Source: a virus. From it: a stretch of 21,424 bases of DNA. How positions within the stretch are numbered: the first letter of the stretch is position 1; every line of letters begins with the position of its first letter. The translations under genes and the position numbers were made by a program. Positions 1,778 through 18,063 of the stretch are shown piece after piece. The stretch spans positions 1 through 21,424 of the IMG/VR virus record IMGVR_UViG_3300022422_000001; one strand, 5' to 3'. Below the pieces are notes generated by a model. It saw only the letters and a program-made list of their open reading frames with translations, was not told the DNA's origin and ran no database searches.

Positions 1778-1804
1778 TCTCATACCCCAACTTCTGGAGG
1801 TTTC

Positions 1805-3001: not shown

Positions 3002-3006
3002 ACCTA

Positions 3007-3606: not shown

Positions 3607-4868
3607 GCGAGACATACACTTCCGACTACGAAACCAAGGCGGAGCCGCAGGTGTCCGCCGTCGAGATGGCGCAGGCCTTCGACGAATTCATGCGCGCCTT
3701 CGAGGCGTTCAAGCAGAGCAACGACGAGCGGCTTGAGCAGATCGAGCAGCGCATGTCCGCCGATGTCGTCACGACCGACAAGCTGGAGCGCATCGACCGC
3801 GCGCTCGACGAGCACAAGCGCACTGTCGATCAGCTCGCGCTGAAGGCCGCGCGTCCGCCGCGCGAAACCGCCGCTGGGCTGGCGCATGGCGCCGTGAGCG
3901 AGCACAAGGCCGCGTTCGACAGTTATGCGCGCACCGGAGACATGGCGAGCTTGCGCGCGCTGGAGCAGAAGGCGCTTTCCGCCGGGACAGGCTCTGATGG
4001 CGGCTTCACCGTGCCGACCGAGGTGGAAAGCACCATCATGCGCGCGCTCACCGAAATTTCGCCGATCCGCGCCATCGCGGGCAACCGGCAGGTGTCGAGC
4101 ATGAGCTTCAAGAAGCCGTTCGCGCGCACGGGCGCGGCCGCCGGCTGGGTCGCTGAGACCGGCACGCGCAGCGAGACCGGAACGCCCGTTCTCGAAGAAC
4201 TCGACTTCCCGACCATGGAACTCTACGCGATGCCCGCGGCGACCCAGACGCTTCTGGATGACTCCGCCGTGGACATCGAGCAATGGATTGCGGACGAGGT
4301 GCGCATCGCCTTCGCCGCGCAGGAAAACACCGCTTTCGTCAGCGGCAACGGCAGCGACAAGCCGAAGGGTTTTCTCGACTACACGCAGGTCGCGGACGGT
4401 TCCTGGAGCTGGGAGAACATCGGCTACATCGCCACCGGCGTGGACGGCGATTTCGCCGGTACCGACCCGGAACACGCGCTGTTCGACCTGATCTACACGC
4501 TGAACGCCGGCTATCGCGGCAATGCCTCCTGGGTCATGAACCGCTCGACGCAGGCCGAAGTGCGCAAGATCAAGGACGGCGACGGCAACTACATCTGGCA
4601 GCCGGCGACAGAGGCCGGGGCGCGGCCCATGTTGCTTGGCTTCCCGATCGTGGAAACCGAGGACATGCCGAGCATCGGCTCGGACGCCACGGCGATCGCG
4701 TTCGGTGATTTTCAGCGCGGCTATCTCGTGGTGGACCGCATCGGCATCCGCGTGCTGCGCGATCCGTTTTCCTCCAAGCCCTACGTGCTGTTCTACACAA
4801 CCAAGCGCGTCGGCGGCGGGGTGCAGGACTTCGGCGCGATCAAGCTGCTGAAGTTCGGCACGTCGTAA
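3603..4868 (+). CDS. Major capsid protein, HK97 fold
   Basis: The 421-residue product builds the head shell. Residues 15-80 are charged and heptad-like, fitting a coiled-coil scaffold (delta) domain that the upstream protease would remove. The HK97-fold core starts around LSAGTGSDGGFTVPTEVEST (125-144). Core family motifs follow, including AGWVAETGTRSETG and the ALFDLIYTLNAGYRGNASWVMNR region (P-domain). The open frame extends upstream to 3429, but the ATG at 3603 is preferred: it is preceded by GAGGAGA and overlaps the protease stop by 4 nt. The exact cleavage site is not visible. The gene is followed by a hairpin-rich 212-nt gap. Confidence 0.95.
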   Translation: MSETYTSDYETKAEPQVSAVEMAQAFDEFMRAFEAFKQSNDERLEQIEQRMSADVVTTDKLERIDRALDEHKRTVDQLALKAARPPRETAAGLAHGAVSEHKAAFDSYARTGDMASLRALEQKALSAGTGSDGGFTVPTEVESTIMRALTEISPIRAIAGNRQVSSMSFKKPFARTGAAAGWVAETGTRSETGTPVLEELDFPTMELYAMPAATQTLLDDSAVDIEQWIADEVRIAFAAQENTAFVSGNGSDKPKGFLDYTQVADGSWSWENIGYIATGVDGDFAGTDPEHALFDLIYTLNAGYRGNASWVMNRSTQAEVRKIKDGDGNYIWQPATEAGARPMLLGFPIVETEDMPSIGSDATAIAFGDFQRGYLVVDRIGIRVLRDPFSSKPYVLFYTTKRVGGGVQDFGAIKLLKFGTS

Positions 4869-4907
4869 CATTGGCCCATGCCCTGGCCGGTCGCGGGCCG
4901 CGGCGGC

Positions 4908-5066
4908 TTTTTCGCTTTCCGGCGGACATCCGCCCGCCGGTTACGCCCCAACGGACCGGCGGCCAGGGGGCCCCTTCAGAGTATTACTTTGATGGGACCC
5001 CGCCAGTCGGCCGCCCAGCGCGCCCTAGAGCGCGCTGGGGTCGCATCCAGCTTAGATTTTCCAAAA
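4908..5066 (+). repeat. Hairpin-chain intergenic element, copy A (degenerate)
   Basis: This is the gap between the capsid and connector genes. A TTTTTCG end (4908-4914) precedes hairpin I, stem CCGGCGG/CCGCCGG at 4919-4925 and 4934-4940, with ACATCCG in the loop, then TTACG. Further right, a GCC-AGTC-GGC remnant (5002-5011) precedes a perfect 10-bp hairpin, CCCAGCGCGC/GCGCGCTGGG, at 5014-5039. A CCAAAAAACGGGG leader just before the next gene resembles the right end of the other copies. The middle part is not symmetric, so this copy looks decayed. Small open frames across it (4871-5090) consist of repeat sequence and are not called. Confidence 0.75.
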
Positions 5067-5080
5067 AACGGGGATGAGCC

Positions 5081-5656
5081 ATGCCGCTAGTGCTGACGGC
5101 CGCGCCCGCTGCTGAGCCGGTGAGTGTTTCCGAGGCGAAGCAATATCTGCGCATTGACAGCGCCGTCGAAGACCCGGTGGTTGCCAGCCTGATCCTCGCG
5201 GCCCGGCTGCATATCGAGGGCGCGCTGGATATCGCGATGGTGACACAGAGTTGGACGCTGGTCCTCGATCAGTGGCCGGCTGACGGTCGCGTATCGGTCC
5301 CGCTCGGGCCGCTGCAGGGCGTCGACTCCGTCAAGGTCCATGACGCAGACGAGGTTGCTCAGACCGTCTCGCCGCAGACGTATGTGGTTGATCTCTCCTC
5401 GCTGCGCCCGCGACTGGTGCGCAATTCCGGCGCTGTCTGGCCAACGCCCGGCCGGCCGGCGAATGGCATCGAGATCGCCGTAACGGCGGGCTACGGGGAT
5501 ACGCCCGAGACGGTGCCACAGCCGATCCGCCAGGCGGTGCTGCTGCTCGCCGCGCACTGGTATGAGCAGCGCGAGCCGGTTGTCTTTGACCAGCCGGATG
5601 AGCTGCCGCACGGCGTCGCGGACTTGCTGAAGCCTTATCGGCAGGTGCGGCTTTGA
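5081..5656 (+). CDS. Head-tail connector/adaptor (GTA gp6-like, phiE125 gp8 family)
   Basis: The 191-residue protein resembles head-tail adaptors that bind under the portal. Its N-terminal helical region starts EPVSVSEAKQYLRID (11-25) and continues with a helix typical of gp6 connectors (VASLILAARLHIEGAL). A central beta-rich region carries the PLGPLQGVDSVKVHD motif, and the C-terminal helical LPQPIRQAVLLLAAHWYEQRE-like segment is a hallmark of the phiE125 gp8 / RcGTA gp6 family. The chosen ATG follows GGGGATGAGCC; an ATG 8 nt earlier is out of frame. The stop overlaps the next gene's start. Confidence 0.85.
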   Translation: MPLVLTAAPAAEPVSVSEAKQYLRIDSAVEDPVVASLILAARLHIEGALDIAMVTQSWTLVLDQWPADGRVSVPLGPLQGVDSVKVHDADEVAQTVSPQTYVVDLSSLRPRLVRNSGAVWPTPGRPANGIEIAVTAGYGDTPETVPQPIRQAVLLLAAHWYEQREPVVFDQPDELPHGVADLLKPYRQVRL

Positions 5657-5979
5657 GCGCGGGCATCGCAACATTGCGCCAGCGGGTCGTGTTGGAGCGC
5701 CCGGTGCGCGCGGCGGATGACGGCGGCGGCGCGGTCGAGACATGGGAGCAAGTCGCCGAGATCTGGGCGATGATAAAGGCCCAATCAGGCAAGGAGGCCG
5801 TCGAGGCCGACCGGCTGTCCGGCACCCGCAAGGCCGATGTGACGATCCGCTATCGCGCGGACGTTGCGCCGAACATGCGCTTTCGCTTCGGTGATCGCGT
5901 GCTCGACATCCACGCGGTGCTCGATGAGGACGGCCGCCGCAGCTTCCTGAAGTGCAGTTGTGAGGAGCGCGACCTGTGA
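5653..5979 (+). CDS. Head closure/stopper protein (GTA gp7-like, SPP1 gp16 family)
   Basis: The 108-residue protein is a head-completion (stopper) protein of the small beta-barrel type. The IATLRQRVVLERP opening, the GGAVETWEQVAEIWAMIKAQSGKE segment (from about residue 24) and the MRFRFGDRVLDIHAVLDEDGRRSFLKCSCEE ending fit phage head-tail joining proteins. The start is a TTG overlapping the upstream stop (TTGA), and the stop overlaps the next start (GTGA), so the three connector genes are probably translationally coupled. Confidence 0.82.
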   Translation: MSAGIATLRQRVVLERPVRAADDGGGAVETWEQVAEIWAMIKAQSGKEAVEADRLSGTRKADVTIRYRADVAPNMRFRFGDRVLDIHAVLDEDGRRSFLKCSCEERDL

Positions 5980-6341
5980 GGTTTTCCGTGAGGACGCGGG
6001 GAACGGGGCTGGGCGGCCTCTCGCGTGCGCTGGAGCGCACGGATGCGCTTGAACGCGCGGTGAGGACGGGCGCTGAAGACGTGGCGCAGCAGGCGCGGGA
6101 CGGTCTTGAGCGCGACGGCGGCGCGGGCGCTCAGGTGCTCGCGGACACGCTTGAGGTGACGCGTGCGCGGCAGCCACTCAGTTACCGCGTTGCGACGCGG
6201 GCGCCGCTGGCCTGGTTCCGCGAATTCGGCGCGCTGATGCGGGCGCAGCGGCCCTGGCTCCGTCCGGCGCTCACTCGGGCGCGCGGGCGCATTGTCCGCC
6301 GCATTGCCCAGACCCTGCGCGGCATGGTCTCGCGCCGCTAA
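5976..6341 (+). CDS. HK97 gp10-like tail-completion protein (tentative)
   Basis: The 121-residue, strongly basic protein begins with a GTG start in a GTGA overlap. Its helical N-terminal half (LSRALERTDALERAVRTGAEDVAQQARDGLER) and its C-terminal FGALMRAQRPWLRPALTRARGRIVRRI segment recall HK97 gp10 family proteins, whose 'aRPFLrPA' motif near the C-terminus is typical. Location between stopper and DUF3168 terminator fits that family in siphophages. I do not place it at this position in the RcGTA cluster. Family assignment is by motif and position only. Confidence 0.55.
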   Translation: MRFSVRTRGTGLGGLSRALERTDALERAVRTGAEDVAQQARDGLERDGGAGAQVLADTLEVTRARQPLSYRVATRAPLAWFREFGALMRAQRPWLRPALTRARGRIVRRIAQTLRGMVSRR

Positions 6342-6359
6342 TCATATCCGGAGACAGCC

Positions 6360-6761
6360 ATGAGCAGTTGGGCCTTGCAGCGCGAGGTGTATGCGACGCT
6401 CGCCAACGACACCGCCGTCGCCGCGCTTCTGGGCGGCGCGCGCATTTATGACGATGTCCCGCAGGACACGCCGTTCCCGTTCATCACGCTCGGCACCGCT
6501 TCCGTCAGCGACTGGAGCACGGGCACGGAACCGGGGCTGGAGCACCGCCTCGATGTGCATGTCTGGTCGCGCTACGCGGGCAAGCGCCAGGCCTACGAGG
6601 TGATCGACGCGGTACGCGCCGTTCTCCACGACGCATCGCTCAGCTTGAGCGGAGCGGCTCTGGTCAATCTGCGCTGCCAGTCCTTCGAGGTGCGCCGCGA
6701 CGAGGACGGCGAAACCTATCACGGCGTGGCGCGGTTCCGCGCCGTGACCGAACCCGTTTGA
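6360..6761 (+). CDS. DUF3168 tail terminator (GTA gp8-like)
   Basis: The 133-residue protein has the DUF3168 pattern: a helix ending in LANDTAVAALLGG, then ARIYDDVPQDTPFPFITLG (27-45), HRLDVHVWSRYAGKRQAYEVIDAVRAVLHD and a C-terminal beta strand (YHGVARFRAVTEP). In RcGTA the equivalent protein caps the tail tube against the head. CCGGAGACAGCC precedes the ATG with good spacing. It follows the HK97-gp10-like gene by 18 nt and precedes the tail tube gene by 22 nt. Confidence 0.88.
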   Translation: MSSWALQREVYATLANDTAVAALLGGARIYDDVPQDTPFPFITLGTASVSDWSTGTEPGLEHRLDVHVWSRYAGKRQAYEVIDAVRAVLHDASLSLSGAALVNLRCQSFEVRRDEDGETYHGVARFRAVTEPV

Positions 6762-6783
6762 TCCAGGAAACGAGGAGAGACCC

Positions 6784-7197
6784 ATGAGCGCCCAGAAGGG
6801 CAAGGATCTGCTTTTGAAGGTCGACAGCGACGGCGCGGGCAATTTCCAGACGGTTGCAGGATTGCGCGCGCGCACGCTCGCCTTCAACGCGGCCACCGTT
6901 GACATCACCAATACCGAATCCGCCGGCGCGTGGCGCGAATTGCTCGCCGGAGCGGGCATCAAGACCGCGCGCATCTCCGGAAACGGTGTGTTCAAGGATG
7001 CGCAATCGGACGAGATCGTGCGCGGCTATTTCTTCGACGGCGTCCAGCGCGACTGGCAGGTGATCGTGCCGGATTTCGGTACCGTTGAGGGGCCGTTTCA
7101 GGTCACGACGCTCGAATACGCCGGCCAGCATGACGGCGAGATGACCTTCGAGCTGTCGCTGGAATCGGCCGGCCAACTCAGCTTCACGGGGGTGTAA
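6784..7197 (+). CDS. Major tail (tube) protein, TP901-1/GTA gp9-like
   Basis: The 137-residue beta-rich protein has classic tail tube features: the KGKDLLLKVDSDGAGNFQTVAGLR opening, TVDITNTESAGAWRELLAG (38-56), an ISGNGVFKD turn (64-72) and a repeating-strand C-terminus ending GEMTFELSLESAGQLSFTGV. It stacks in hexamers to form the tail tube. GAGGAGA at 6771-6777 is a strong ribosome binding site, as expected for an abundant structural protein. Confidence 0.93.
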   Translation: MSAQKGKDLLLKVDSDGAGNFQTVAGLRARTLAFNAATVDITNTESAGAWRELLAGAGIKTARISGNGVFKDAQSDEIVRGYFFDGVQRDWQVIVPDFGTVEGPFQVTTLEYAGQHDGEMTFELSLESAGQLSFTGV

Positions 7198-7200
7198 GTC

Positions 7201-7542
7201 ATGGTCAATCCGCATCGCGGCGAGATTGAAGCGGTTCTTGGCGGGCTGCCCTATACGCTGTGCCTGACGCTGGGCGCGCTCGCCGAACTGGAGCACGCCT
7301 TTGGCGAGACGGACATGATGGCGCTTGCCGAACGCTTTCAGAGCGGGCGGATCAGCGCGGGCGATGCGCTCAAGATCATCGGCGCGGGCCTGCGCGGGGC
7401 CGGGCATCAGCTCAGCGATGACGATGTGGCGAAACTGCCCGCGCCCGGTGGCGCGCCGGGGTTCGTCGACATCGTCGCGCGGCTGCTGAACGCAACCTTC
7501 GGAGCCCTCACCGATCAGCGGAGCGAGCCCGATGCCGGGTGA
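7201..7542 (+). CDS. GTA gp10-like tail assembly chaperone
   Basis: The 113-residue protein matches the 'gene transfer agent family protein' group found right after the tail tube gene. Its features are HRGEIEAVLGGLPYTLCLTLGALAELEHAFG at the N-terminus, then a helical region with RISAGDALKIIGAGLRGAG and a Pro/Gly-rich linker. In many siphophages two small overlapping genes here encode chaperones for the tape measure, which fits the 11-nt overlap with the next gene. No slippery frameshift site is apparent. Confidence 0.85.
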   Translation: MVNPHRGEIEAVLGGLPYTLCLTLGALAELEHAFGETDMMALAERFQSGRISAGDALKIIGAGLRGAGHQLSDDDVAKLPAPGGAPGFVDIVARLLNATFGALTDQRSEPDAG

Positions 7543-7753
7543 GCCGTCGCGTCGGCCCTTTCCCTGGGACGAGGCCATGGCAATCGGGCTGGGCGTGTTG
7601 CGGCTTGCACCGCGCGACTTCTGGGCAATGACGCCCGTGGAACTGGCGCGCGCCATCTCGGGATTGAACGGCGGGCTGCCTGCAGCGCCGATGACGCGCG
7701 ATAGCCTCGATGGCTTGATCGCGCGCTTCCCGGACAGAGGATCACATGGCTGA
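7532..7753 (+). CDS. Small tail assembly chaperone (rcc01693/TIGR02216 family)
   Basis: The 73-residue protein has the family signature: FPWDEAMAIGLGVLRLAPRDFWAMTPVELARAISG (described by W12, the LRLAPRDFW core and the TPVEL helix). Members occur in RcGTA-type clusters between gp10 and the tape measure and were originally described as phage-specific. The gene overlaps gp10 by 11 nt and the tape measure start by 8 nt, and so is almost certainly translationally coupled to both. Confidence 0.85.
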   Translation: MPGEPSRRPFPWDEAMAIGLGVLRLAPRDFWAMTPVELARAISGLNGGLPAAPMTRDSLDGLIARFPDRGSHG

Positions 7754-8330
7754 AACAGTTGCCGATCTGGCAATCGAGGTGTCGGCGCGCACCGATCAGG
7801 CGCGCGCGCAGCTCAAGGAACTGGAAACGCTCGGCGAGCGGTTCGCCGGACGGCTGGGCCGCTCGTTCGAGAAAGTCGCACTCGATGGAGCCGGCCTGCG
7901 CGACGTGTTGCAGGACCTTGCGCTTGACCTTTCACGGATGGCGCTCCGCTCGGCTTTTGCTCCGGTGGAAAGCGCGATCGCTTCGGCGTTCGGCGGGCTG
8001 GCCGGTGGCATCGCCCCATTCGCGGCTGGCGGGGTGATCCAGCAGGCCATGCCGGTGCCCTTCGCCGATGGCGGCGTGATCAGCGCGCCGGTGTCATTTC
8101 CGTTACGCGGCGGCCGGGTCGGCGTTGCCGGAGAGGCCGGGCCGGAGGCGATCCTTCCGCTTTCACGCGGGCGCGACGGGCGGCTTGGCGTGCGAGCAGA
8201 AGCCGCGGCCGGCGCGACGAACGTCACCGTCAATATCTCCACACCGGATATCGAGGGCTTCCGCCAGAACCAGGGTCAGATCACGGCGCAGATCGCGCGG
8301 GCGGTCGGCAGGGGTCAAAGGAATCTTTAG
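7746..8330 (+). CDS. Short tape measure protein (GTA gp11-like)
   Basis: The 194-residue protein sets tail length and may pass DNA at infection. Residues 1-65 are helical and coiled-coil-like (TDQARAQLKELETLGERFAGR). Residues 75-115 are hydrophobic and Gly/Ala-rich (FAPVESAIASAFGGLAGGIAPFAAGGV). Then comes the typical tape-measure C-terminal block VGVAGEAGPEAILPLSRG (starting at about residue 122), ending NQGQITAQIARAVGRGQRNL. It is tiny compared with most phage tape measures but close to the RcGTA form, so a very short tail is expected. Confidence 0.85.
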   Translation: MAETVADLAIEVSARTDQARAQLKELETLGERFAGRLGRSFEKVALDGAGLRDVLQDLALDLSRMALRSAFAPVESAIASAFGGLAGGIAPFAAGGVIQQAMPVPFADGGVISAPVSFPLRGGRVGVAGEAGPEAILPLSRGRDGRLGVRAEAAAGATNVTVNISTPDIEGFRQNQGQITAQIARAVGRGQRNL

Positions 8331-8963
8331 ATGGCGTTTCACGACATTCGCTTTCCCACCGCGATCTCGCGCGGTGCGAGCGGTGGGCCGGAGCGGCGCA
8401 CCGAGATCGTCACGCTGGGGTCCGGCCATGAAGAGCGCAACCAGCGCTGGGCCGACAGCCGCCGGCGGTATGATGCCGGCTACGGCGTCCGCGGCATCGA
8501 CGATCTCCATGCGGTGATCGCGTTCTTCGAGGAGCGGCGCGGGCGGATGCACGCGTTCCGATGGAGGGACTGGAGTGATTATCGCTCTGGCCCGCCCGGC
8601 AAGGCGCCGGCGATTGATGATCAGGTGATCGCCGTCGGTAACGGCTCGGATGACACCTTCCAGCTTATCAAGGTCTATGGTGCCAGCTTCGCGCCCTGGA
8701 CACGCAGGATCGAAAAACCCGTCCCGGCTTCGGTCAAGGTGGCTGTTGATGGGATTGCGCAGGTGGAGGGTACCGACTTCACGGTCAATGATGCGACCGG
8801 CGTGGTCACTTTCACCACTGCGCCGGCGGGTGGCGCGCAGATCACCGCGGGGTTCGACTTTGACGTGCCCGCCCGCTTCGATACGGACAGGCTGGCCGTG
8901 AGCCTTGAGCACTTCTCGCACGGCGACATTCCGAACATTCCGATCGTGGAGGTGCGGCTGTGA
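8331..8963 (+). CDS. DUF2460 distal tail protein (GTA gp12-like)
   Basis: The 210-residue protein has the strongly conserved DUF2460/TIGR02217 N-terminus: FHDIRFPTAISRGASGGPERRTEI (key residues F7, P8, I11, G14 and G18), the RNQRWADSRRRYDAG block and IAFFEERRGRMHAFRWRDWSDY. Residues after 85 form a beta domain (FQLIKVYG..., VNDATGVVTFTTAPAGG). The product is the distal tail ring linking tube to baseplate. It begins immediately after the tape measure stop. Its TGA is followed directly by repeat element B. Confidence 0.92.
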   Translation: MAFHDIRFPTAISRGASGGPERRTEIVTLGSGHEERNQRWADSRRRYDAGYGVRGIDDLHAVIAFFEERRGRMHAFRWRDWSDYRSGPPGKAPAIDDQVIAVGNGSDDTFQLIKVYGASFAPWTRRIEKPVPASVKVAVDGIAQVEGTDFTVNDATGVVTFTTAPAGGAQITAGFDFDVPARFDTDRLAVSLEHFSHGDIPNIPIVEVRL

Positions 8964-8964
8964 G

Positions 8965-9206
8965 TTTTTGCTGTCCGGCGGACATCCGTGCGCCGGTTTA
9001 CGCGCCTAAGGCGCGACGCCCGGTCGGGCTTACAGCCGCGCCGGCGGCGCGCCTGGGGCGCAAAACGCGGGAGTGGGAACAATCCCAGCCGCGGATCTGC
9101 GCGGCTGAGCCGCCGACTGGCGGCCGGCCCGTTGGGCCGTATCCGGGCCATGAAGCCAAAGGCGGGCGCGAATGCGACCAATATGGTCCGGTCTGCAAAA
9201 AAGGCC
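8965..9206 (+). repeat. Hairpin-chain intergenic element, copy B (inverted pair plus cloverleaf-like end)
   Basis: The left arm starts with TTTTTGC (8965-8971). Hairpins follow: I 8975-8996 (CCGGCG stem, loop with ACATCCG), II 9001-9015 (CGCGCC/GGCGCG, loop TAA), III 9018-9029 (GCCCG-GT-CGGGC) and IV 9037-9051. The right arm is the same series reversed: IV' 9086-9107 (CAGCCGCG/CGCGGCTG), III' 9109-9124 (GCCGCC-GACT-GGCGGC) and II' 9125-9139 (CGGCCC-GTT-GGGCCG). Where hairpin I' is expected there is instead a 9-bp stem, 9143-9151 with 9183-9191 (one G-T pair), enclosing a 31-nt loop shared with copy D. A TGCAAAAAAGG leader then provides the ribosome binding site of the peptidase gene. Confidence 0.85.
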
Positions 9207-9210
9207 GCTC

Positions 9211-9669
9211 ATGAGCGACCGAGAAGTTTTCGACGACATGAGCCATCGCGTTGTCGAAGCCGCGCGCGGCTGGCTCGGCACGCCTTATCATCATCAGGCT
9301 GCGGTGAAGGGCGCGGGCTGCGACTGCCTCGGGCTGATCCGCGGCGTCTATGCCGAAGTGATGGGGCGCGAGCCGGAGACGCCGCCGGCCTATTCGCGCG
9401 ACTGGGCGGAAATGCGCGGCGAGGAAACCCTCCTCGAAGCGGCGCGGCGGCACCTTTCGCTGCGCGCCACGAGCGAGCGGCCACAGCCCGGCGATGTCCT
9501 GATCTTCCGGATGAAGAAAGGCGCGCTCGCCAAGCATTCCGGCATCGTGAGCGCGGTGGCTGATGGCGCGCCGACACGCATGATCCATGCGCAGGAAGGC
9601 GCCGGTGTTGTCGAGATCAACCTTTCGCGGTGGTGGCGCCGGCGGATTGTTGGGGTTTTTAGTTTTTAG
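9211..9669 (+). CDS. NlpC/P60-type tail peptidase (GTA gp14-like)
   Basis: The 152-residue protein is a cysteine peptidase likely to cut peptidoglycan stem peptides during DNA delivery. WLGTPYHHQAAVKGAGCDCLG (starting at residue 21) contains the catalytic Cys39, with His109 in AKHSGIV and His126 in MIHAQEGAGV completing the family's catalytic residues. The ATG at 9211 is preferred because AAAAAAGG lies 6 nt upstream; an in-frame ATG at 9238 is an alternative. In RcGTA this gene follows the DUF2163 hub gene. Here it sits before the hub gene and is flanked on both sides by hairpin elements. Confidence 0.92.
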   Translation: MSDREVFDDMSHRVVEAARGWLGTPYHHQAAVKGAGCDCLGLIRGVYAEVMGREPETPPAYSRDWAEMRGEETLLEAARRHLSLRATSERPQPGDVLIFRMKKGALAKHSGIVSAVADGAPTRMIHAQEGAGVVEINLSRWWRRRIVGVFSF

Positions 9670-9670
9670 G

Positions 9671-9933
9671 GTCCGCGAGCCTTCCGGCTCGCGGCTACCG
9701 GCCAAGCCGGGGGGCAGTGGATTCTTCACGGTCCGAGCCACATCCGTGGCTCGATTACGGGCCTGAGGCCCGGCCGCCGGTCGGCGGCTCAGCGCGCAAG
9801 AGCGCGCTGTAGAGGCAGTGCCCACGTTAGCGTTTAGCGCCCCAGCGCGCCCGAAGGGCGTGCTAAGCCGCCGACCGGCGGCCGGCGCTTAGCGCCGAAA
9901 CGGCGGGACGGATGTCCCGTCGACTGCAAAAAA
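9671..9933 (+). repeat. Hairpin-chain intergenic element, copy C (partial arm plus inverted pair)
   Basis: A partial arm comes first: a 9-bp hairpin CCGCGAGCC-TTCC-GGCTCGCGG at 9673-9694, then CCGGC-CAA-GCCGG at 9698-9710. The full left arm follows: I 9734-9753 (CGAGCCA/TGGCTCG around CATCCG), ATTACG, II 9759-9771 (GGGCC-TGA-GGCCC), III 9773-9788 (GCCGCC-GGTC-GGCGGC) and IV 9790-9809 (CAGCGCGC-AAGA-GCGCGCTG). The inverted right arm is IV' 9844-9864, III' 9867-9882 (loop GACC), II' 9883-9897 (CGGCGC-TTA-GCGCCG) and I' 9904-9919 (CGGGAC-GGAT-GTCCCG), then TGCAAAAAAGGAGA. The first 9-bp hairpin lies a few bases after the peptidase stop and could also act as a 3'-end stabiliser. Confidence 0.88.
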
Positions 9934-9946
9934 GGAGACCTAGCAC

Positions 9947-10351
9947 ATGCCTGATATCGCAGACGGAATTCTCGATCAACTGGTGGACTGGATCATCGGC
10001 AAGTCCGATCCGGTCCCCGCTTCTGGCACGCGCTATGTCGCGCTGTTCGACGGCGATCCGCAGGGCGCCGGCTCGGAAGTCACGACCACCATTCGCCCCT
10101 CCGGGCGGCTGGCGATCACATCGAGCATGGAAGCTGCCGGGACCACCAACACCGGCGAGAGTTCATCGACAGCGGACATTGACTTCGGCAACGCCGATAG
10201 CGGCGCGACGGTCTCGCATATCGCCATTTATGACAGCGCCTCGGGCGGGACGCTGCTGGCCTCGGATGCGCTCACGGGCGGATCGCAGACCGTGACGGCG
10301 GGCAACCCGGTGAAAATCCCCTCGGGCGATCTGACGGTGAGCATTAGCTAA
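9947..10351 (+). CDS. Tail-fibre-like small structural protein
   Basis: The 134-residue protein resembles small phage proteins often annotated as tail fibre proteins. It has an N-terminal helix (IADGILDQLVDWIIG), a strand reading TRYVALFDGDPQGAGSEVT, a central Thr/Ser-rich region, SHIAIYDSASGGTLLASDALT and a C-terminal strand pair ending IPSGDLTVSIS. GGAGA lies within the element C leader with good spacing to the ATG. It lies between elements C and D as a single-gene cassette and has no equivalent that I know of in the RcGTA cluster. The family is recognised by pattern only; the function is inferred. Confidence 0.5.
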   Translation: MPDIADGILDQLVDWIIGKSDPVPASGTRYVALFDGDPQGAGSEVTTTIRPSGRLAITSSMEAAGTTNTGESSSTADIDFGNADSGATVSHIAIYDSASGGTLLASDALTGGSQTVTAGNPVKIPSGDLTVSIS

Positions 10352-10437
10352 GGCCGGCCACATCCGTAGGCCGGTTGCCGGCGGACGAAGCCGTAAGGCG
10401 GGCGCGAAGCGACCAATGTCCGCCGGACAGTCAACAA
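10352..10437 (+). repeat. Hairpin-chain intergenic element, copy D (short form with cloverleaf-like end)
   Basis: Hairpin I is at 10354-10374 (CCGGCC/GGCCGG, loop ACATCCGTA) and starts within 2 nt of the upstream stop codon. It is followed directly by the second fold: a perfect 9-bp stem, CCGGCGGAC at 10378-10386 with GTCCGCCGG at 10418-10426. The stem encloses a 31-nt loop that itself contains GCC-GTAA-GGC and CGC-GAA-GCG mini-hairpins and ends in ACCAAT. The same loop, with a different but complementary outer stem, occurs in copy B. ACAGTCAACAAAGAGATCCT then leads to the next ATG. Confidence 0.82.
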
Positions 10438-10446
10438 AGAGATCCT

Positions 10447-10791
10447 ATGACCACGCTGAACCTGGAAGCGGCGACCAACGCCGACTGGCGCCAGCCGTTC
10501 AAGGCGGCTGACGCGGCCGGCGGGGACCTGAGCCTGACCGGCGCGACGATCCGCATGGATGTCCGCGACCGGGGCGGGACCAGCGCGCTGTCGCTGGCGC
10601 TCGGGTCCGGCCTGACCGTGACCGATGCGGCGGCGGGCGAATTCGAGCTCGAGGTCGACCGCGACGACATGGCCGGCATCGCGCCGGGGCTGTATGGCTT
10701 CGACCTGCTGATAGAGATCGACGGGCTGGCGCTGACGGCCGCGCGCGGCACGGTGCACATCCGCGACGGGGTGACTGAATGGCCCGCGTGA
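10447..10791 (+). CDS. Hypothetical small beta-rich tail-module protein
   Basis: The 114-residue protein alternates predicted strands: LSLTGATIRMDVRDRGGTSALSLALGSGLTV (from about residue 28), then FELEVDRDDMAGIAPGLYGFDLLIEIDGLALTAARGTVHIRDGVT. The layout recalls small immunoglobulin-like or baseplate/fibre-associated domains that precede fibre genes in phages, but I cannot assign a family. AAAGAGA upstream supports the ATG at 10447 over an in-frame GTG at 10375 that lies inside repeat element D. The 3' end overlaps the next gene by 13 nt, so the two products are probably partners. Confidence 0.7.
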   Translation: MTTLNLEAATNADWRQPFKAADAAGGDLSLTGATIRMDVRDRGGTSALSLALGSGLTVTDAAAGEFELEVDRDDMAGIAPGLYGFDLLIEIDGLALTAARGTVHIRDGVTEWPA

Positions 10792-12125
10792 CCATCACAT
10801 ACGGCGAGCCGCGCCGGACGGTCGTTTACCCCGCCGCGCCGGAGAACCTGTCGAAGCTGCTCGGCGCGATGGTGAACAGCGCGATCAGCGTTGCGCCAGG
10901 CGTCCGGCAGGATCATCTCCTCGACGCGGCGCTGGCCGCCTCGGGGGCTTTTGCCGGCGGGCCGCTGGTCACGGAGATTTTCAACCTGGAGGCGCTGCTC
11001 GATGTCAACGGCACGTTGTCTGCGGGGCTCAGCCAGGCGCAAGGCCTGTCGGCGCAACTCGACGCAACCGGCGATCTGGCCGCGAACACGCAGCAGGACC
11101 ACCTCGGCGCGCTGGATATCTTCGCCCTGTCCGTCCTCACGGCCAGCATCCAGACCGACATCCTGCTCGGCGCGCAGATGGACACCACGGGCGATCTGGC
11201 CGGCGACGTGACCTCGCAATCGGCCTCGAACGACATGCAGGCCGCGGCGGTGACGTATTCCGGCTCCGGGGCCGCGCAGTCGATTACCGGCGTCGGGTTC
11301 CAGCCCGATATGGTTATCATCCTGAGCCGCGCAGACACCTCGGGGATCAGCGTTTACATCGGCGACCGCATCTCGCTTGGCCCCGGCGTGATCTGGGACG
11401 CGCAGCATAGCGACGGTTTCTTCTTCGAGGATAACGTCACCTTCTCCAGCACCATCACCTCTTACGATACCGACGGCTTCTCGGTTGAGGACAATGACCG
11501 GGTGAACGATAGCAGCAAGTTCTATCTGGCCTTGTGCTTCAAGGGGGGCGATCAGTTCGAGGTGATCGACAAGCAGAACGACGGCACCAGCGGGCAGGTG
11601 GTCGCGCACAGCCTGTCCACCGCGCCGGTCTGGGCGTTCATCAAGCAACCGAGCGAGACGGCTGGCGAATGGCTCAACGAATGGACGGTTGGCTCGCAGC
11701 ACGCCGAGGCCTTTGGTGAGTTCTTCGTGGGCGGCGGCAGCGACACGTTGCAGGCCGTATCCGCCAGCGATGTCACGCTGGGCACCGATGGACGTTGGAA
11801 CCCGAACGACACCAACACCGCGGCGCTTTATCTGTTCGGCAGCGCGGCCATCTCCGGCAAGTACGAAACCGGCACCTACACCGGAACCGGCGGATCAAAC
11901 AACGCGATCACCGGGCTGGGCTTCAAGCCGGAATTCGTGCTGGTGCGCTCGGCTGACGATCAGCACGTCTTCTTGCTGAGCGAAGAGCTGATCCCGGACA
12001 CTGCGGCCAACCTGACCAATGGCGACCGGGACGCCGCCTTCACGCTCGACACTGACGGCTTCACCGTGGACAGCGGCAACATGAACGCGTCGGGCGATCA
12101 GTATCGGTATTTCGCATGGGGCTGA
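10779..12125 (+). CDS. Modular tail fibre / receptor-binding-like protein
   Basis: The 448-residue protein has two parts. Residues 45-145 contain degenerate repeats of the form LDxxGxLA (LDVNGTLS 74-81, LDATGDLA 94-101, MDTTGDLA 134-141). Residues 155-448 hold three related beta modules: VTYSGSGAAQSITGVGFQPDMVII (from 158), QVVAHSLSTAPVWAFIKQ (from 273) and YTGTGGSNNAITGLGFKPEFVLV (from 367). The first and last modules finish with DTDGFSVEDND- and DTDGFTVDSGN-type strands. This 'GFxPxxV...DGF' pattern is common in phage tail fibre C-termini. It ends 1 nt before the DUF2163 gene. Receptor binding is inferred, not shown. Confidence 0.55.
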   Translation: MARVTITYGEPRRTVVYPAAPENLSKLLGAMVNSAISVAPGVRQDHLLDAALAASGAFAGGPLVTEIFNLEALLDVNGTLSAGLSQAQGLSAQLDATGDLAANTQQDHLGALDIFALSVLTASIQTDILLGAQMDTTGDLAGDVTSQSASNDMQAAAVTYSGSGAAQSITGVGFQPDMVIILSRADTSGISVYIGDRISLGPGVIWDAQHSDGFFFEDNVTFSSTITSYDTDGFSVEDNDRVNDSSKFYLALCFKGGDQFEVIDKQNDGTSGQVVAHSLSTAPVWAFIKQPSETAGEWLNEWTVGSQHAEAFGEFFVGGGSDTLQAVSASDVTLGTDGRWNPNDTNTAALYLFGSAAISGKYETGTYTGTGGSNNAITGLGFKPEFVLVRSADDQHVFLLSEELIPDTAANLTNGDRDAAFTLDTDGFTVDSGNMNASGDQYRYFAWG

Positions 12126-12126
12126 G

Positions 12127-13017
12127 ATGATGGAGCTTCCCGCAGAATTGCAGGCGCATCTCGACACCGGCGCGACCACCCTTTGTTGGTGCTGGCGTCT
12201 CACGCGGACGGACGGCACCGAGCTGGGCTTCACCGACCATGACCGCGATCTCGCCTTCGACGGCACCACATTTCAGGCAGACAGCGGGTTCACGGCAAGC
12301 GAAATCGCCTCCTCGGTAGGCTTGAGCGTGGACAACCTCGAGGCCGAGGGCGCGCTGCAATCCGGGCACATGAGCGAGACTGATCTTGCCAAGGGGCTTT
12401 ATGACAACGCGGTTGTCGAGGTCTGGCGCGTCAACTGGGCCGATGTCGCGGAGCGGGTGTTGGTGCGCAAGGGCAATCTGGGCGAGGTGACGATCCAGGA
12501 CGGGGCCTTTGTGGCGGAAATCCGGGGGGTGGCGCACGCGCTCAACCAGACGCAGGGCCGGGTCTTTCAGGCACAGTGTGACGCGGATCTGGGCGATGCG
12601 CGCTGCACGGTTGATCTCGACAGCGCGGCGTTCAAGACCTCCGGCACGGTGGACAGCACATCCTCGGACACGCGCTTTGTCGTGACCGGCCTCGACAGCT
12701 TCGATGCCGGGTGGTTCACGCGCGGCTTCCTGACATGGGATACCGGCGGCAATGCCGGCCAGAAGATGGAGGTGAAGCGCCACACCAAGGCGGACGGGAC
12801 CGTGACCATCGGGGTGTGGCAGACGCCTGCGGTGGCGGTGGCAGCGGGAGACACCTTCACCATCCGCGCGGGCTGCGATAAGCAGTTCACAACCTGCCGG
12901 GACAAGTTCTCCAATGTGGCGAACTTCCGGGGCTTCCCGCACATTCCGGGCAATGATTTCGTGGTGCAGGTTGCGGAACGGAACGACCCGGACAATGACG
13001 GCGGGAGTATGAATTAA
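12127..13017 (+). CDS. DUF2163 baseplate hub protein (GTA gp13-like)
   Basis: The 296-residue protein has the DUF2163/TIGR02218 pattern: TTLCWCWRLTRTDGTELGFTDHDRDL (from 18), FTASEIASSVGLSVDNLEAEGAL (55-77), VEVWRVNWAD, and the C-terminal block GCDKQFTTCRDKFSNVANFRGFPHIPG (249-275). Four cysteines, C151, C160, C250 and C257, occur in a CX8C...CX6C arrangement fitting a metal or Fe-S site, as reported for the related lambda gpL hub. The start is an ATG two bases after the preceding stop; an ATG at the second codon is equally possible. The stop overlaps the next start (TAATG). Confidence 0.92.
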   Translation: MMELPAELQAHLDTGATTLCWCWRLTRTDGTELGFTDHDRDLAFDGTTFQADSGFTASEIASSVGLSVDNLEAEGALQSGHMSETDLAKGLYDNAVVEVWRVNWADVAERVLVRKGNLGEVTIQDGAFVAEIRGVAHALNQTQGRVFQAQCDADLGDARCTVDLDSAAFKTSGTVDSTSSDTRFVVTGLDSFDAGWFTRGFLTWDTGGNAGQKMEVKRHTKADGTVTIGVWQTPAVAVAAGDTFTIRAGCDKQFTTCRDKFSNVANFRGFPHIPGNDFVVQVAERNDPDNDGGSMN

Positions 13018-16000
13018 TGGCCACATTAGTCCTGGGCGCAGCCGGCGCGGCGGCGGGGTCTGCCCTGCTGCCTGCCGGCGTTTCCGTGTTGGGGGCAACG
13101 CTCGGCGGCGCGGCTATCGGGCGCGCGGTCGGCACCCTTGCGGGGACCTTCATTGACCAGGCGCTTTTCGGCGCAACCGGCCAGGCGCAGCCCGGCGAGG
13201 GGCCGCGCATCTCTGACACGCAGGTCACGGCCTCCACCGAGGGCACGCCGATCCCGCGCGTGTATGGCCGCGCGCGCCTCGGCACGCAACTGATCTGGGC
13301 CACCAATCTGGAGGAGGTTGTCGAGAACAACGGGGGCGGCAACGATGGCTTCTTCAAGGGTATCGGCGGCTCCTCCTCCTCGAGCGGCAAGACCTACAAG
13401 TATTTCGCCAACTTCGCGGTCGCGCTTTGCGAGGGGCCGATCAGCCATATCGGGCGGGTCTGGGCCGATGGCGACGAGGTGGACCTGACGCTGTTCACGT
13501 ACCGCGTCTACAAGGGCACCGAGACCCAGACCGCTGACAGCCTGATCGAGAGCAAGGAGGGCGCGGACAATGCCCCGGCCTATCGCGGGCTTGCCTATAT
13601 CGTCTTCGAGCGCATGCCGCTCAATCAGTTCGGGGACCGCATCCCGCAACTGAATGTCGAGGTGTTCAAGCCCGTTGATGATCTGGAAAAGGATATCCAG
13701 GCGGTCACGGTGATCCCGGCGGCCAGCGAGTTCGCTTACGACCCGGAAGAAACGGTCATCCGTGATATAGGCGCGGGGTTCTGGGAACCCACGAACAACT
13801 GGACGAAACGCGAGGGCACCGACTGGGCGGTCTCGCTCGACAACCTCCAGGACGTGATCTCCAACGTGGACGCGGTGAGCCTGTTCGTGACGTGGTTCGG
13901 CGATGATCTGCGCTGCGGCCAGTGCGACATCAAGCCGAAGGTGGACACGAACGACAAGGACACCAAGCCTTACACCTGGAAGGTGCAGGGGATCGGGCGT
14001 GGCGGCGCGGAGGTGGTCAGCGACAAGCCCGGCGGCGGCGTGGCCTTCGGTGGCACCCCGGCGGACCGGGCGGTGCGCGATGCCATCGCGGATATCCAGG
14101 ACCGGGGCCTGAAAGCCGTTCTCACGCCGTTCCTGCTCATGGACATTCCCGAGAACAACGGGCTGCCCGATCCCTATTCGAGCGCGACAGACCAGCCGGT
14201 TTATCCCTGGCGCGGGCGGATCACCTGCGACCCGGCCCCCGGCGCGACCAGCACGGTGGATCAGACCGCCACGGCGCGCACGCAGATCGAGAGCTTCGAG
14301 GGGACTTGCGCGGTCTCCGACTTCACCATTACGACCGATAACGAGGTGATCTATAGCGGGCCGAACGAATGGAGCTATCGCCGCTTCATCCTGCACTACG
14401 CCCATCTCTGCAAGGCCGCGGAGAACATCTCCGGCACGCCGGTGGAAGCCTTCGTGATCGGCACCGAGCAGCCTTATCTCACATGGGTCCGGGACCAGAA
14501 CGATGCCTTCCCGTTCGTGGACGCACTGGTCACGCTGGCCGCGGACGTGAAGTCGGTTCTACCCAACACGAAAGTCACCTACGCGGCGGACTGGACGGAG
14601 GTTGCGCCCTTCCAGACCTCGCAATTCGGCGGGCCATCGGGCGAGATATTCTTTCACCTGGACCCGTTGTGGTCCTCGCCCAACATCGACGCCATCGGCA
14701 TCGACAACTATTGGCCGTTGTCGGACTGGCGCGATGGCGAGAGCCATCTGGACTTCCAGGCTGGCAACCCGTCGATCTATGACGCGGCCTACCTGCGCGG
14801 CAATATCGAGGGCGGCGAGGGTTATGACTGGTTTTACGCCTCGAAAGCGGACCGGGACGCCCAGACCCGCACCGACATCACCGACGGGGCCGGCAAGCCG
14901 TGGGTGTTCCGCTTCAAGGACATCAAGTCGTGGTGGGAAAACCAGCACTTCGACAGGCCGGGCGGGACCGAGAACACCAGCGCGACGACCTGGACCCCGG
15001 AGAGCAAACCGTTCTGGATGATGGAACTCGGCTGTCCGGCGGTGGACAAGGGGGCCAACCAGCCGAACGTGTTTTTCGATCCCAAATCGAGCGAAAGCCA
15101 GCTTCCCTATTATTCCAACGGCTCGCGCGATGATCTGATGCAGCGCCGGTACATCACGGCGTTCCTCGGATACTGGGACGAGAACGACCCGGACTTCGTG
15201 GCCGGCAATAACCCATTGTCGAGCGTCTATGCGGGGCGCATGGTCGATCTCAGCCGGGTGTTCATCTACACCTGGGACGCGCGCCCCTATCCCGCGTTCC
15301 CGAACCTGGACTTCATCTGGTCGGATGCCGAGAACTGGAAATTCGGGCACTGGATCACGGGGCGGGCCTCGGACGCGCCTGTCTCGCAGGCCATCCGCAA
15401 AATCCTCGCGGACTACGGCTTCGAGAATGTCTCGATCCCCACGGTTGCCGGCGATCTCTCCGGCTATGTGATCGAGCGCAACATGTCGCCGCGCGATGCC
15501 TTGCAGCCGCTCGAGACCACGTTCTTTCTCGATGCCGTCGAAAGTGCCGGACAAATCGCCCTGCGCGCGCGTGGTCAGGCGGAAAGCCTTGGAACGGTGG
15601 ATCACGACGGTGTTGTCGAAAACGCCCGTACAGCGGCGCGTGTGAGCGTTACACGGGGTCAGGAGACCGAACTGCCGGGCCGCGCGCGGATCAGCTACTT
15701 CGACGCGGAAAACGAATACAAGAGCGCCAGCGTCGAGACCCTGAAACTGACCGGGGCCTCGGATCGCGTCTCGACGGTCTCGCTGGCGGCCACGGCGCGC
15801 CAGTCGGTGATGTACGCGGCGGCTGAAAAGCTGTTGCGTGAGCAGTGGGCCGCGCGCGAGCGGTTGTCGTTTTCCCTGCCGCCGTCGCTGATGAAGGCCG
15901 AGCCGGGCGATCTCATCACGGTGAACACCGGCGCGCGCAACCTTCCGGCACGGATCACGCGGATCACGCAGGGCGCGGCACTGGAGATCGAGGCGCTGAG

Positions 16001-17009
16001 CCACGAGCGCGGGGTTTATGAGGAACTGGACGCGCCGGACACCTCGGGCACGCCGAACACCAGCACGGTCTACGGGCCGCCGGAGGTGGCGTTCATGGAC
16101 CTGCCGCTCATCACCGGGAACGAGGTGGCTCATGCCGGTTATGTGGCGGCGTTCTCCAACCCGTTCGGCGGGGTGGATTTCTACCGCTCGCCGCAGACCA
16201 CGAACTTCAACCTGAATAGCCAGGTCGCCGCCCCGTCCACGCTTGGCGAGACCGAAACCGATCTTTACTCGGGGCCGACCTCGCGGTTTGACCGGGGCAA
16301 CGTGCTGCGCATCAAACTGTTCCCGCAAGGGGTCACGCTGGAAAGCGTCAACGATCTGAGCCTGTTCGACGGGGCCAACACCTTGGCCGTGGAGGGCGCG
16401 GACGGAGCTTGGGAGGTGTTGCAGTTCCGGGATGCGCAGCTTGTCGCGCCGGGGGTGTACGACCTGACCAATCTGCTTCGGGGGCAATACGGCACCGAGG
16501 ACGCGATGGCGGACCCGGTGGCAAGCGGGGCGCGGGTGGTGCTGCTCGACGGCAGCGCGGTCCAGGTGGCGATGGAACAAAGCGAGATCGGGCTGCCGTA
16601 TAACTGGCGATATGGGCCAAGCCCGGAACCGCTGGATAACTTCGCTTACACGACCGTGCAGCACGCCTTCACCGGGCGGGGTCTCAAGCCGTTTTCGCCT
16701 GTGCATGTGGCGGGCAGCCGCGACGGCGCGGGCGACCTCACCATCTCGTGGATACGGCGGGCGCGCGTGAATGGCGATGCGTGGGAACCCTCGAGCGTGC
16801 CGCTGAATGAGCCATCGGAAGGCTACGAGGTGGACATTCTCGACGGGGCCACGGTGGTGCGCACGCTGACCGCCAGCAGCCCGAGCGTGGTTTACACGGC
16901 GGCACAGCAGACAACCGACTTCGGGGGCGCGCAATCGAGCGTGGACGTGGTGGTGTATCAGATGAGCGATGTGGTCGGGCGCGGCACGGGCCGGGCGGGG
17001 GTTGTATAG
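13017..17009 (+). CDS. GTA gp15-like TIM-barrel tail tip protein
   Basis: The 1330-residue protein is the large central baseplate/tail-tip component. It has a hydrophobic Gly/Ala-rich N-terminal segment (about 1-52) and a first beta region with PIPRVYGRARLGTQLIW. A glycoside-hydrolase-like TIM barrel follows (about 440-790), with FWMMELGCPAVDKGANQPN near 668-684 and QRRYITAFLGYW. Next is the Phage-tail_3 region (about 875-970: RGQETELPGRARISYFDAENEYKS), then C-terminal beta domains. Length matches RcGTA gp15. The barrel has been suggested to degrade cell-surface glycans; activity cannot be judged here. The last gene of the tight operon, it is followed by element E. Confidence 0.93.
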   Translation: MATLVLGAAGAAAGSALLPAGVSVLGATLGGAAIGRAVGTLAGTFIDQALFGATGQAQPGEGPRISDTQVTASTEGTPIPRVYGRARLGTQLIWATNLEEVVENNGGGNDGFFKGIGGSSSSSGKTYKYFANFAVALCEGPISHIGRVWADGDEVDLTLFTYRVYKGTETQTADSLIESKEGADNAPAYRGLAYIVFERMPLNQFGDRIPQLNVEVFKPVDDLEKDIQAVTVIPAASEFAYDPEETVIRDIGAGFWEPTNNWTKREGTDWAVSLDNLQDVISNVDAVSLFVTWFGDDLRCGQCDIKPKVDTNDKDTKPYTWKVQGIGRGGAEVVSDKPGGGVAFGGTPADRAVRDAIADIQDRGLKAVLTPFLLMDIPENNGLPDPYSSATDQPVYPWRGRITCDPAPGATSTVDQTATARTQIESFEGTCAVSDFTITTDNEVIYSGPNEWSYRRFILHYAHLCKAAENISGTPVEAFVIGTEQPYLTWVRDQNDAFPFVDALVTLAADVKSVLPNTKVTYAADWTEVAPFQTSQFGGPSGEIFFHLDPLWSSPNIDAIGIDNYWPLSDWRDGESHLDFQAGNPSIYDAAYLRGNIEGGEGYDWFYASKADRDAQTRTDITDGAGKPWVFRFKDIKSWWENQHFDRPGGTENTSATTWTPESKPFWMMELGCPAVDKGANQPNVFFDPKSSESQLPYYSNGSRDDLMQRRYITAFLGYWDENDPDFVAGNNPLSSVYAGRMVDLSRVFIYTWDARPYPAFPNLDFIWSDAENWKFGHWITGRASDAPVSQAIRKILADYGFENVSIPTVAGDLSGYVIERNMSPRDALQPLETTFFLDAVESAGQIALRARGQAESLGTVDHDGVVENARTAARVSVTRGQETELPGRARISYFDAENEYKSASVETLKLTGASDRVSTVSLAATARQSVMYAAAEKLLREQWAARERLSFSLPPSLMKAEPGDLITVNTGARNLPARITRITQGAALEIEALSHERGVYEELDAPDTSGTPNTSTVYGPPEVAFMDLPLITGNEVAHAGYVAAFSNPFGGVDFYRSPQTTNFNLNSQVAAPSTLGETETDLYSGPTSRFDRGNVLRIKLFPQGVTLESVNDLSLFDGANTLAVEGADGAWEVLQFRDAQLVAPGVYDLTNLLRGQYGTEDAMADPVASGARVVLLDGSAVQVAMEQSEIGLPYNWRYGPSPEPLDNFAYTTVQHAFTGRGLKPFSPVHVAGSRDGAGDLTISWIRRARVNGDAWEPSSVPLNEPSEGYEVDILDGATVVRTLTASSPSVVYTAAQQTTDFGGAQSSVDVVVYQMSDVVGRGTGRAGVV

Positions 17010-17250
17010 TTTGTTTTTGTCGTCGGCGGGCGGCGAGTCTTTAGCTGTCCGGGGGGGGCATCCGTCCCCCGGTTACGCGGCTAAGCCGCGGCGGCCGGTC
17101 GGCCGCTCAGCACGCTCTTCGGGCGCGCTGGGGGGAGGTTCCCTCGTAAGCGAAGGCGCGCCCCAGCCGCGCATCTGCGCGGCTGAAAGGCCGACCGGCC
17201 GCCGCGCGTTGCGCGAAACCGAAGCGCGGATGCGCTTCGGAAAGCAAAAA
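17010..17250 (+). repeat. Hairpin-chain intergenic element, copy E (complete inverted pair)
   Basis: The left arm follows a TTTGTTTTTG run: I 17049-17072 (CCGGGGG/CCCCCGG, loop with CATCCGT), GGTTACG, II 17076-17090 (CGCGGC-TAA-GCCGCG), III 17091-17106 (GCGGCC-GGTC-GGCCGC) and IV 17108-17130 (imperfect, loop CTTCGG). A spacer is followed by the inverted right arm: IV' 17164-17185 (CAGCCGCG-CATCTG-CGCGGCTG), III' 17189-17200 (GGCC-GACC-GGCC), II' 17205-17215 (CGCG-TTG-CGCG) and I' 17219-17240 (CCGAAGCGC-GGAT-GCGCTTCGG), then AAAGCAAAAAGAGAGA, which serves as the ribosome binding site of the next gene. This is the clearest full-length copy. The open frame running through it from 16969 is not considered coding. 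Confidence 0.88.
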
Positions 17251-17262
17251 GAGAGACATAAC

Positions 17263-18063
17263 ATGCCAAGTTCACCAAATCTCGTTGTGCCGTTTATCGA
17301 GGCGGCGCAGGCGCAGAAGCATGTCACGCACAACGAGGCGCTGCGCGTGCTCGATGCCGCCGTTCAGCTATCCGTTCTCGATCGCGATCTGACCGATCCC
17401 CCCGGCGCACCGGGCGACGGCGATCGTTATATCCCGGCCTCGGGCGCGACGGGCGCATGGTCTGGCAAGGACCTCAACATCGCGGCGTGGCAGGACGGCG
17501 CCTGGGCGTTCCTGGTGCCGCGCGAGGGCTGGCTGTGCTGGGTCGCGGACGAGGACGTGCTGCTGGTCTGGGATGGCGCACAATGGGCTGATGCAAGCGC
17601 GGTCGCCAGCCTGAACCCGGCGACCGGCGGTCTGGTCGGCGTCAACGCCACGGCGGATGCCACGAACCGCCTCTCGGTCACGGCCCCGGCGGCGCTGTTC
17701 AATGCCGAGAGCGATCATTTCAACGCCAAGATCAACAAGTCCACGGCCGGCGACACAGCCAGCTTCATGTTTCAGCAGGGCTTCACGACCTATGCTGAGT
17801 TCGGCCTGATCGGCGATAACGACCTCACCTTCAAGGTCTCGGACGGGACCGGCTTCTTCACCTCATTCAAGATCGGCAACGCCGATGGCGAAATGGCGAT
17901 GGAGCAGCCACTCGGCCTCAAAGCCTACTCCAAGTCCAGCCTGCCGCCGGTCTCGCCCGCCGGGCGTCTGATCTGGGTTTTCGATGACAGCAACGGCGCG
18001 ACCGTCGCCTTTTCCGACGGCGGCGGCTGGAAGCGCCTGCACGACCGGACGGCGATTGCCTGA
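17263..18063 (+). CDS. DUF2793 protein (GTA head-spike-like)
   Basis: The 266-residue protein begins with the DUF2793 signature: SPNLVVPFIEAAQAQKHVTHNEALRVLDAAVQLSVLDRDL (key AQAQKHVTHNEAL at 15-27), then DPPGAPGDGDRYIPASGATGAWSGKDLNIAAWQDGAWAFLVPREGWLCWVADED. The C-terminal part is beta-rich and ends in a GTVAFSDG-type strand (ATVAFSDGGGWKRL). DUF2793 occurs in RcGTA head spikes, which help particles bind capsular polysaccharide, and in phage tail proteins. The ATG at 17263 follows AAAAAGAGAGA; the frame is open upstream to 16969, but that part is repeat element E. Confidence 0.85.
   Translation: MPSSPNLVVPFIEAAQAQKHVTHNEALRVLDAAVQLSVLDRDLTDPPGAPGDGDRYIPASGATGAWSGKDLNIAAWQDGAWAFLVPREGWLCWVADEDVLLVWDGAQWADASAVASLNPATGGLVGVNATADATNRLSVTAPAALFNAESDHFNAKINKSTAGDTASFMFQQGFTTYAEFGLIGDNDLTFKVSDGTGFFTSFKIGNADGEMAMEQPLGLKAYSKSSLPPVSPAGRLIWVFDDSNGATVAFSDGGGWKRLHDRTAIA

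Follow-up and report, generated by a model that had tools for sequence, protein, structure and literature searches.

Palindromic repeats with conserved loops and covarying stems in the gene gaps of a GTA-type cluster: a possible mobile element kept as a DNA fold

The structural genes of the IMG/VR virus record IMGVR_UViG_3300022422_000001, a stretch of 21,424 bp analysed at its full length and hereafter called the window, are in part separated by palindromic repeats that make up 1087 of the 1422 intergenic bases of their cluster. The hairpins of these repeats keep the same loops from copy to copy while their stems change together with their complements. Covariation of this kind usually counts as proof that an RNA is functional. 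The question here is what is being kept, an RNA of the operon, a fold of the DNA itself, or the trace of a copying process. The preliminary description of this DNA had named selection on a fold, either RNA or extruded cruciform, or a mechanism renewing both stem halves at once. We favour, with moderate confidence, a non-autonomous mobile palindromic element that is maintained as folded DNA, rather than a conserved operon RNA.

The genes of the record form a GTA-type structural cluster (Table 1), with Pfam matches that include DUF2460, NLPC_P60, Phage_phiJL001_Gp84_N, GTA_TIM and Phage-tail_3. DUF2460 was assigned to g12, NlpC/P60 to g14, the GTA_TIM domain to g15 and the fibre-like pair to Gp80 and DUF7483; a DUF2793 gene and an endolysin gene follow downstream of g15, and the 3' end of the window falls inside pufC, the gene of a photosynthetic reaction-centre cytochrome. 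The same cluster order is found on the chromosome of genome G540, a member of the Hyphomicrobiales (the order that holds the named MAG G002, locus L099), where pufC adjoins the cluster at 85% protein identity. Because cluster and pufC are syntenic on this chromosome, the window is host chromosomal DNA carrying a GTA and not an independent virus, cluster and adjoining pufC spanning 428-21424, and the host lineage is a phototrophic member of the Hyphomicrobiales, a photosynthetic relative of Hyphomicrobium. The features that characterize a GTA cluster, namely genes of the RcGTA set, kept in order and carried on a host chromosome, are found here. At 9214-13017 the order differs from that of RcGTA, as it reads g12-g14-(Gp80, ORF, DUF7483)-g13-g15, g13 standing after g14 and the fibre-like genes, which lie between the two. 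Beside the cluster, on the minus strand at 18333-18710, lies a gene whose small protein product contains a VHL beta domain (PF01847, E 4e-7), unusual in bacteria.

One repeat family occupies five gene gaps of the window (E1-E5). Each arm is a chain of four hairpins that reads 5'-(TTTTTGCTGT)-I-TTnC-II-III-TnCAGC-IV-GCTGGGG, with the loops CATCCG in hairpin I, TAA, AAC or TGA in hairpin II, GGTC or AGTC in hairpin III and a variable loop in hairpin IV. A full copy consists of an arm, a centre of about 25 nt and an inverted arm, and thus reaches about 210-240 bp and up to eight hairpins; 14 such full elements, with terminal inverted arms around a short non-coding centre and without genes inside, were collected. 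In the window E2, E3 and E5 are full copies, E1 is a lone left arm and E4 a deletion derivative. The hairpin I stems cited in the preliminary description are all present (Table 1), as are its hairpin II stems CGCGCC-TAA, GGGCC-TGA, GGCGC-TAA (in reverse complement) and CGCGGC-TAA. It was thus right about hairpins I and II; it missed hairpins III and IV as well as E1, which lies outside the region it covered, and it overlooked that the arms have an orientation and mirror one another about a conserved centre.

Table 1. The structural gene cluster of the window, the copies of the repeat and the hairpin I stems seen in them.
Feature	Position	Strand	Basis
GTA-type structural cluster (TerL, portal, protease, capsid, connector, tail, g12, g14, fibre-like, g13, g15)	428..18063	+	Pfam domains and synteny in G540
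E1, lone left arm between capsid and gp6 genes	4909..5040	+	R1 covariance model, 72.7 bits
E1, nested palindromic insert in loop of hairpin III	about 4965-5008		absent from L010 ortholog
E2, left arm (hairpins I-IV) after g12	8965..9057	+	R1, 82.5 bits
E2, hairpin I stem	8975-8996		CCGGCG..CGCCGG
E2, right (inverted) arm before g14	9084..9201	-	R1, 63.3 bits
E3, left arm after g14	9723..9812	+	R1, 86.9 bits
E3, hairpin I stem	9734-9753		CGAGCCA(C)..(G)TGGCTCG
E3, right (inverted) arm	9840..9932	-	R1, 86.1 bits
E3, inverted hairpin I	9904-9919		CGGGAC GGAT GTCCCG
E4, deletion derivative, hairpin I twice (10354-10374, 10378-10426)	10352..10446	.	stems and insert seen
E4, first hairpin I stem	10354-10374		CCGGCC..GGCCGG
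E5, left arm after g15	17039..17133	+	R1, 86.5 bits
E5, hairpin I stem	17049-17072		CCGGGGG..CCCCCGG
E5, right (inverted) arm before DUF2793 gene	17161..17250	-	R1, 89.9 bits
E5, inverted hairpin I	17219-17240		CCGAAGCGC GGAT GCGCTTCGG

That the fold is conserved in this repeat family is beyond doubt. In a first alignment of 15 arms, made with plain MAFFT without use of structure, 93.6% of the cells pair and the covariation score is 0.545 against 0.162 for shuffled data (0/500), whereas partners slid by one to three columns pair in just 31-43%. A covariance model then collected 59 arms, 54 of them distinct, from the window, L010, L011, L201, L206, L210, three phage records and G540. In this set of 54 arms pairing holds in 95.5% of stem cells and covariation scores 0.581, compared with 0.153 for shuffled data (0/500); two-sided changes occur in 22 of 26 pairs, with covariation in hairpins I, II, III and IV. 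This larger alignment was fitted to the covariance model, and the structure-free alignment of 15 arms agrees with it. The shuffle controls model phylogeny incompletely; two measures that are robust to relatedness, based on pair counts and on pair types, were attained by 1 and 2 of the 500 shuffled sets of the 54 arms. The earlier proposal that the fold persists while the stems change, which was to be given up should a larger alignment lack covariation, therefore stands with 15 as with 54 arms. Folding points the same way, with z = -10.6 for E3 as RNA (9724-9932) and z = -6.9 for E5 as DNA (17039-17250). In the folds of E3 and E5 hairpin III also pairs across the arms with its counterpart III'. 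This cross-arm pairing was rejected as a general fold, given that arms from one element resemble each other no more than arms from different elements do: variable pairs match in 78 of 160 comparisons (49%) within an element and in 54% between unrelated arms.

The fold is not constrained evenly. Throughout the 54 arms the loop-closing and basal pairs of hairpin II and the closing pair of hairpin III are fixed, the middles of the stems are free, and hairpin I alone shows 32 different stems. The loops stay constant and nearly every copy has paired stems of its own, suggesting that recognition by the cell goes by the folded shape and not by sequence. The hairpins moreover vary separately. The combination of stems I, II and III is unique in 52 of 54 arms, and mutual information between variable pairs amounts to 0.21 (I), 0.13 (II) and 0.14 (III) within a hairpin, as compared to 0.03-0.06 between hairpins. 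Similarly, orthologous left arms of L011 and G540 have hairpin I in common and differ in II, III and IV. Such a pattern would be expected if each hairpin were a small module drawn from an old dictionary of stems, and if copies evolved mainly by recombination or gene conversion, whole hairpins being swapped at the conserved spacers. However, this would leave unexplained the origin of the 32 hairpin I stems as well as new insertions at empty junctions, and spacers of 3-4 nt are short for homologous recombination, so that we regard swapping as an improbable main explanation.

The types of pairs exchanged are equally informative. In the 18 core pairs of the 54 arms, 918 of 944 cells are Watson-Crick, and the two-sided changes (n = 229) comprise 189 flips between G-C and C-G, 34 transitions and 6 changes of other kinds. 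G-T is seen in 3 cells when the arm strand is read and in 9 in the mRNA sense, A-C in 12 and 4, respectively; in the mRNA sense G-U is thus slightly above A-C (9 vs 4), a difference that is not significant at such counts. Two-sided changes with many flips and no G-U intermediates are the outcome that a one-step correction would leave, if template switching between stem halves during replication copied mutations across and produced perfect, changing stems without selection. Template switching is documented for RNA hairpins, which it maintains with two-sided compensatory changes lacking intermediates (PMC8794818), and orthologous arms do differ by compensated pairs here (L011 and L201 at tmp/g12, L011 and G540 at g13/g15). 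On the contrary, the orientation of the hairpin I loop is constant (37:0), and the absence of inverted loops, the expected by-product, makes simple template switching less likely. Seed mutations should also be mostly transitions, but flips prevail; fixed loop-closing and basal pairs around a variable middle need selection; and old copies decay instead of being corrected. The present hairpins thus depart from the documented RNA cases in lacking loop inversions, in the dominance of C-G flips and in what we read as mobility of the copies, and we give template switching a small probability.

Position provides a further line of evidence. Orthologous GTA clusters, roughly 74-88% identical at the nucleotide level, were compared junction by junction. 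At g13/g15 the window has 2 bp, where G540 has a full element of about 230 bp between identical flanks; L011 has a full element there as well. The g14/gp80 junction is filled in the window (E3), L011, L201 and G540 and empty in L010 and L206 (16-19 bp), and gp80/orf114 is filled only in the window (E4) and L011, the empty sites of L010, L206, L201 and G540 measuring 8-15 bp. Only L011 is filled at duf/g13 and only the window at g12/g14 (E2). At tmp/g12 the window and L010 are empty, L011 and L201 carry a right arm, L206 a left arm and G540 a decayed remnant. The overlapping upstream junctions g6-g7-g8 are free of elements in both the window and G540. Part of these differences could reflect loss instead of gain. 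Short duplications are seen at two sites (TA doubled at g13/g15, TGA at g12/g14), and both overlap stop or start codons and could be selected. In L011 (3683-4168) an element lengthens the g14 frame by the C-terminal residues PAHIRGPVTG, where the window has a stop.

Resident copies also decay and receive inserts. Besides the G540 remnant, E1 is partly decayed, with two broken pairs in hairpin II, and its orthologous copy in L010 is intact and free of the nested insert. All seven arms with inserts of at least 20 nt carry them in the loop of hairpin I or III. A 33-nt insert (about 9151-9183) thus replaces the hairpin I loop in the right arm of E2, and the second hairpin I of E4 bears a loop insert of about 30 nt (10387-10417) from the same insert family. 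This family, GGTCGC(A)TTCGCGCCCG..CTT (about 30 nt), occupies loop I of E2 and E4 as well as loop III of L246. E1 and L201 share a second, palindromic kind of insert, located in loop III.

These observations bear on the reading that covariation would first call to mind, in which the elements are cis-acting mRNA structures of polycistronic phage and GTA operons, compensatory changes keep the RNA fold, and the hairpins, placed past a stop codon and ahead of a ribosome-binding site, determine how stable the mRNA is, insulate its translation or take part in antitermination. All copies of the window indeed lie between co-oriented genes, right arms end at the ribosome-binding region (that of E3 reaches into the one of the 9947-10351 gene), the predicted RNA is very stable, and the intergenic space of the cluster is largely made of elements. 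In G540 at least 9 arms were found, a lower bound from 150 candidates scored, and 4 of them lie in the GTA cluster, about 0.5% of the genome (binomial 9e-8). However, the position at orthologous junctions is unconserved, lone left and right arms interchange at one junction, copies decay without compensation, and G-U is almost absent despite the number of two-sided changes, although selection for G-C-rich stems in RNA could be a partial cause of this rarity. The element is also found in contigs of unrelated phages that encode tail and sheath proteins, a primase and an endolysin, and other G540 copies stand beside unrelated chromosomal genes, adjoining genes for a nitroreductase, a phosphodiesterase and UbiA or lying not far from rsmH (mraW). 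No Rfam family matched the window at the gathering score, a relaxed E giving weak chance matches only. As copies come and go at orthologous junctions, in both orientations and in phage as well as chromosomal contexts, with almost no G-U, a common role as operon mRNA structure appears rather unlikely. An RNA role of individual copies is possible, since right arms end at ribosome-binding regions. Thus the fold announced by the preliminary description is real, and of the two levels it allowed, DNA fits better than operon mRNA; its other option, a mechanism renewing both stem halves, may contribute.

The scarcity of G-U, presence and absence at junctions, unrelated gene contexts, decay and insertions into loops together argue for the DNA fold of a mobile element. 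Such an element, belonging to this phototrophic lineage and its phages, would land in gene junctions, past a stop codon and ahead of the following ribosome-binding site, where harm is least, and the object kept would be folded DNA, either a single strand or an extruded cruciform. A putative nuclease or recombinase of host or phage may read loops and shape during movement or recombination; oriented loops and loop-closing pairs would then be conserved, and any self-complementary sequence could serve as the middle of a stem. Stems would diversify provided that pairing holds, whole hairpins might be exchanged between copies, and resident copies would later degrade, as single bases mutate, an arm is deleted or other DNA inserts into a loop. 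Further results count against the mobile-element reading. A transposing family normally has some near-identical recent copies, and none was found except in near-duplicate records; likewise, a search for Y1 enzymes identified no transposase or recombinase for the element. In a bolder and, in our view, unlikely form of the proposal, this is a bacterial and phage mobile DNA element recognised purely as a chain of loop-tagged hairpins, a hairpin-copying step gives each copy fresh complementary stems, and small palindromes insert into the extruded loops. The overwhelming covariation accompanies presence and absence, decay, loop-targeted insertions and near-absent G-U, all of which point to mobile folded DNA. 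If this is true, covariation screens of bacterial intergenic regions would flag such elements as new RNAs, and the family would allow DNA recognition by structure alone to be tested on the many stem variants that nature already supplies.

A search of open-licence papers returned no description of this repeat family, and known systems resemble it in part only. Repeats of the REP/BIME type are likewise intergenic, palindromic and present in many copies, often as inverted dimers with structured spacers, and those with a CGTC tag are common in Alphaproteobacteria without a dedicated transposase (PMC3733652). Unlike them, the present element has four-hairpin arms and conserves its loops, not its stems. 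The GTAG/CGTC tag is missing from the hairpin base, as hairpin I has a variable 5' flank (GCTGTCC, GCTTTCC, GTCGACG, AAGTGACC and others) that contains TGTC in a minority of arms, and a PF01797 search for a Y1/HUH transposase (RAYT) gave none in G540 (possibly incomplete) or in the virus records. With MITEs the element shares short non-coding inverted arms, precise presence or absence at orthologous sites and nested insertions. It differs from them in that the arms do not repeat each other's sequence at variable pairs, and neither a parent transposon (among Y1 enzymes) nor a clean target duplication was found. The attC sites of integrons are recognised as a folded single strand, and their stem sequences may differ between sites with the fold kept. 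Here the loops are conserved in sequence, no integrase or gene cassettes are seen, and the intervening genes are those of the GTA core. Mitochondrial double-hairpin elements and the RHE of sponge mitochondria are GC-rich, of one to three hairpins, located between genes and presumed mobile; in the RHE, however, stems are conserved and loops vary (PMC2800124), the reverse of what is found here.

The core family is narrowly distributed. A pattern search of G540 allowing up to 3 mismatches gave few copies among the matches listed, and the other seven genomes of its family have none. The pattern CCGN5CATCCGN5CGGTTNCG had a single match, not self-complementary, in 385 alphaproteobacterial genomes (the class of G001). 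The families of G047, G115 and G001 gave no self-complementary match. In 398 genomes of the order of G002 hairpin-forming matches were confined to G540, single matches elsewhere being not self-complementary, and the whole element had no DNA match among phage and plasmid records. On the other hand, a related module, in which TTGCC comes after hairpins II and III and the outer hairpins are others, is found in L187, L182, L183 and L100, from Bacterium MnTg02 and deep-sea alphaproteobacterial MAGs; its stems are likewise variable and self-complementary, and hairpin I is different. A search for this module over 3.0 Mb gave 92 real matches against 0 in shuffled sequence, most of them from the core family. 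Given these relatives, the superfamily is wider than the core family. In G540 (L245), the g15/DUF2793 junction holds an apparent tRNA gene (GCGGACATAGCTCAGT..GTCCGCTCCA) and an extra ORF in place of E5.
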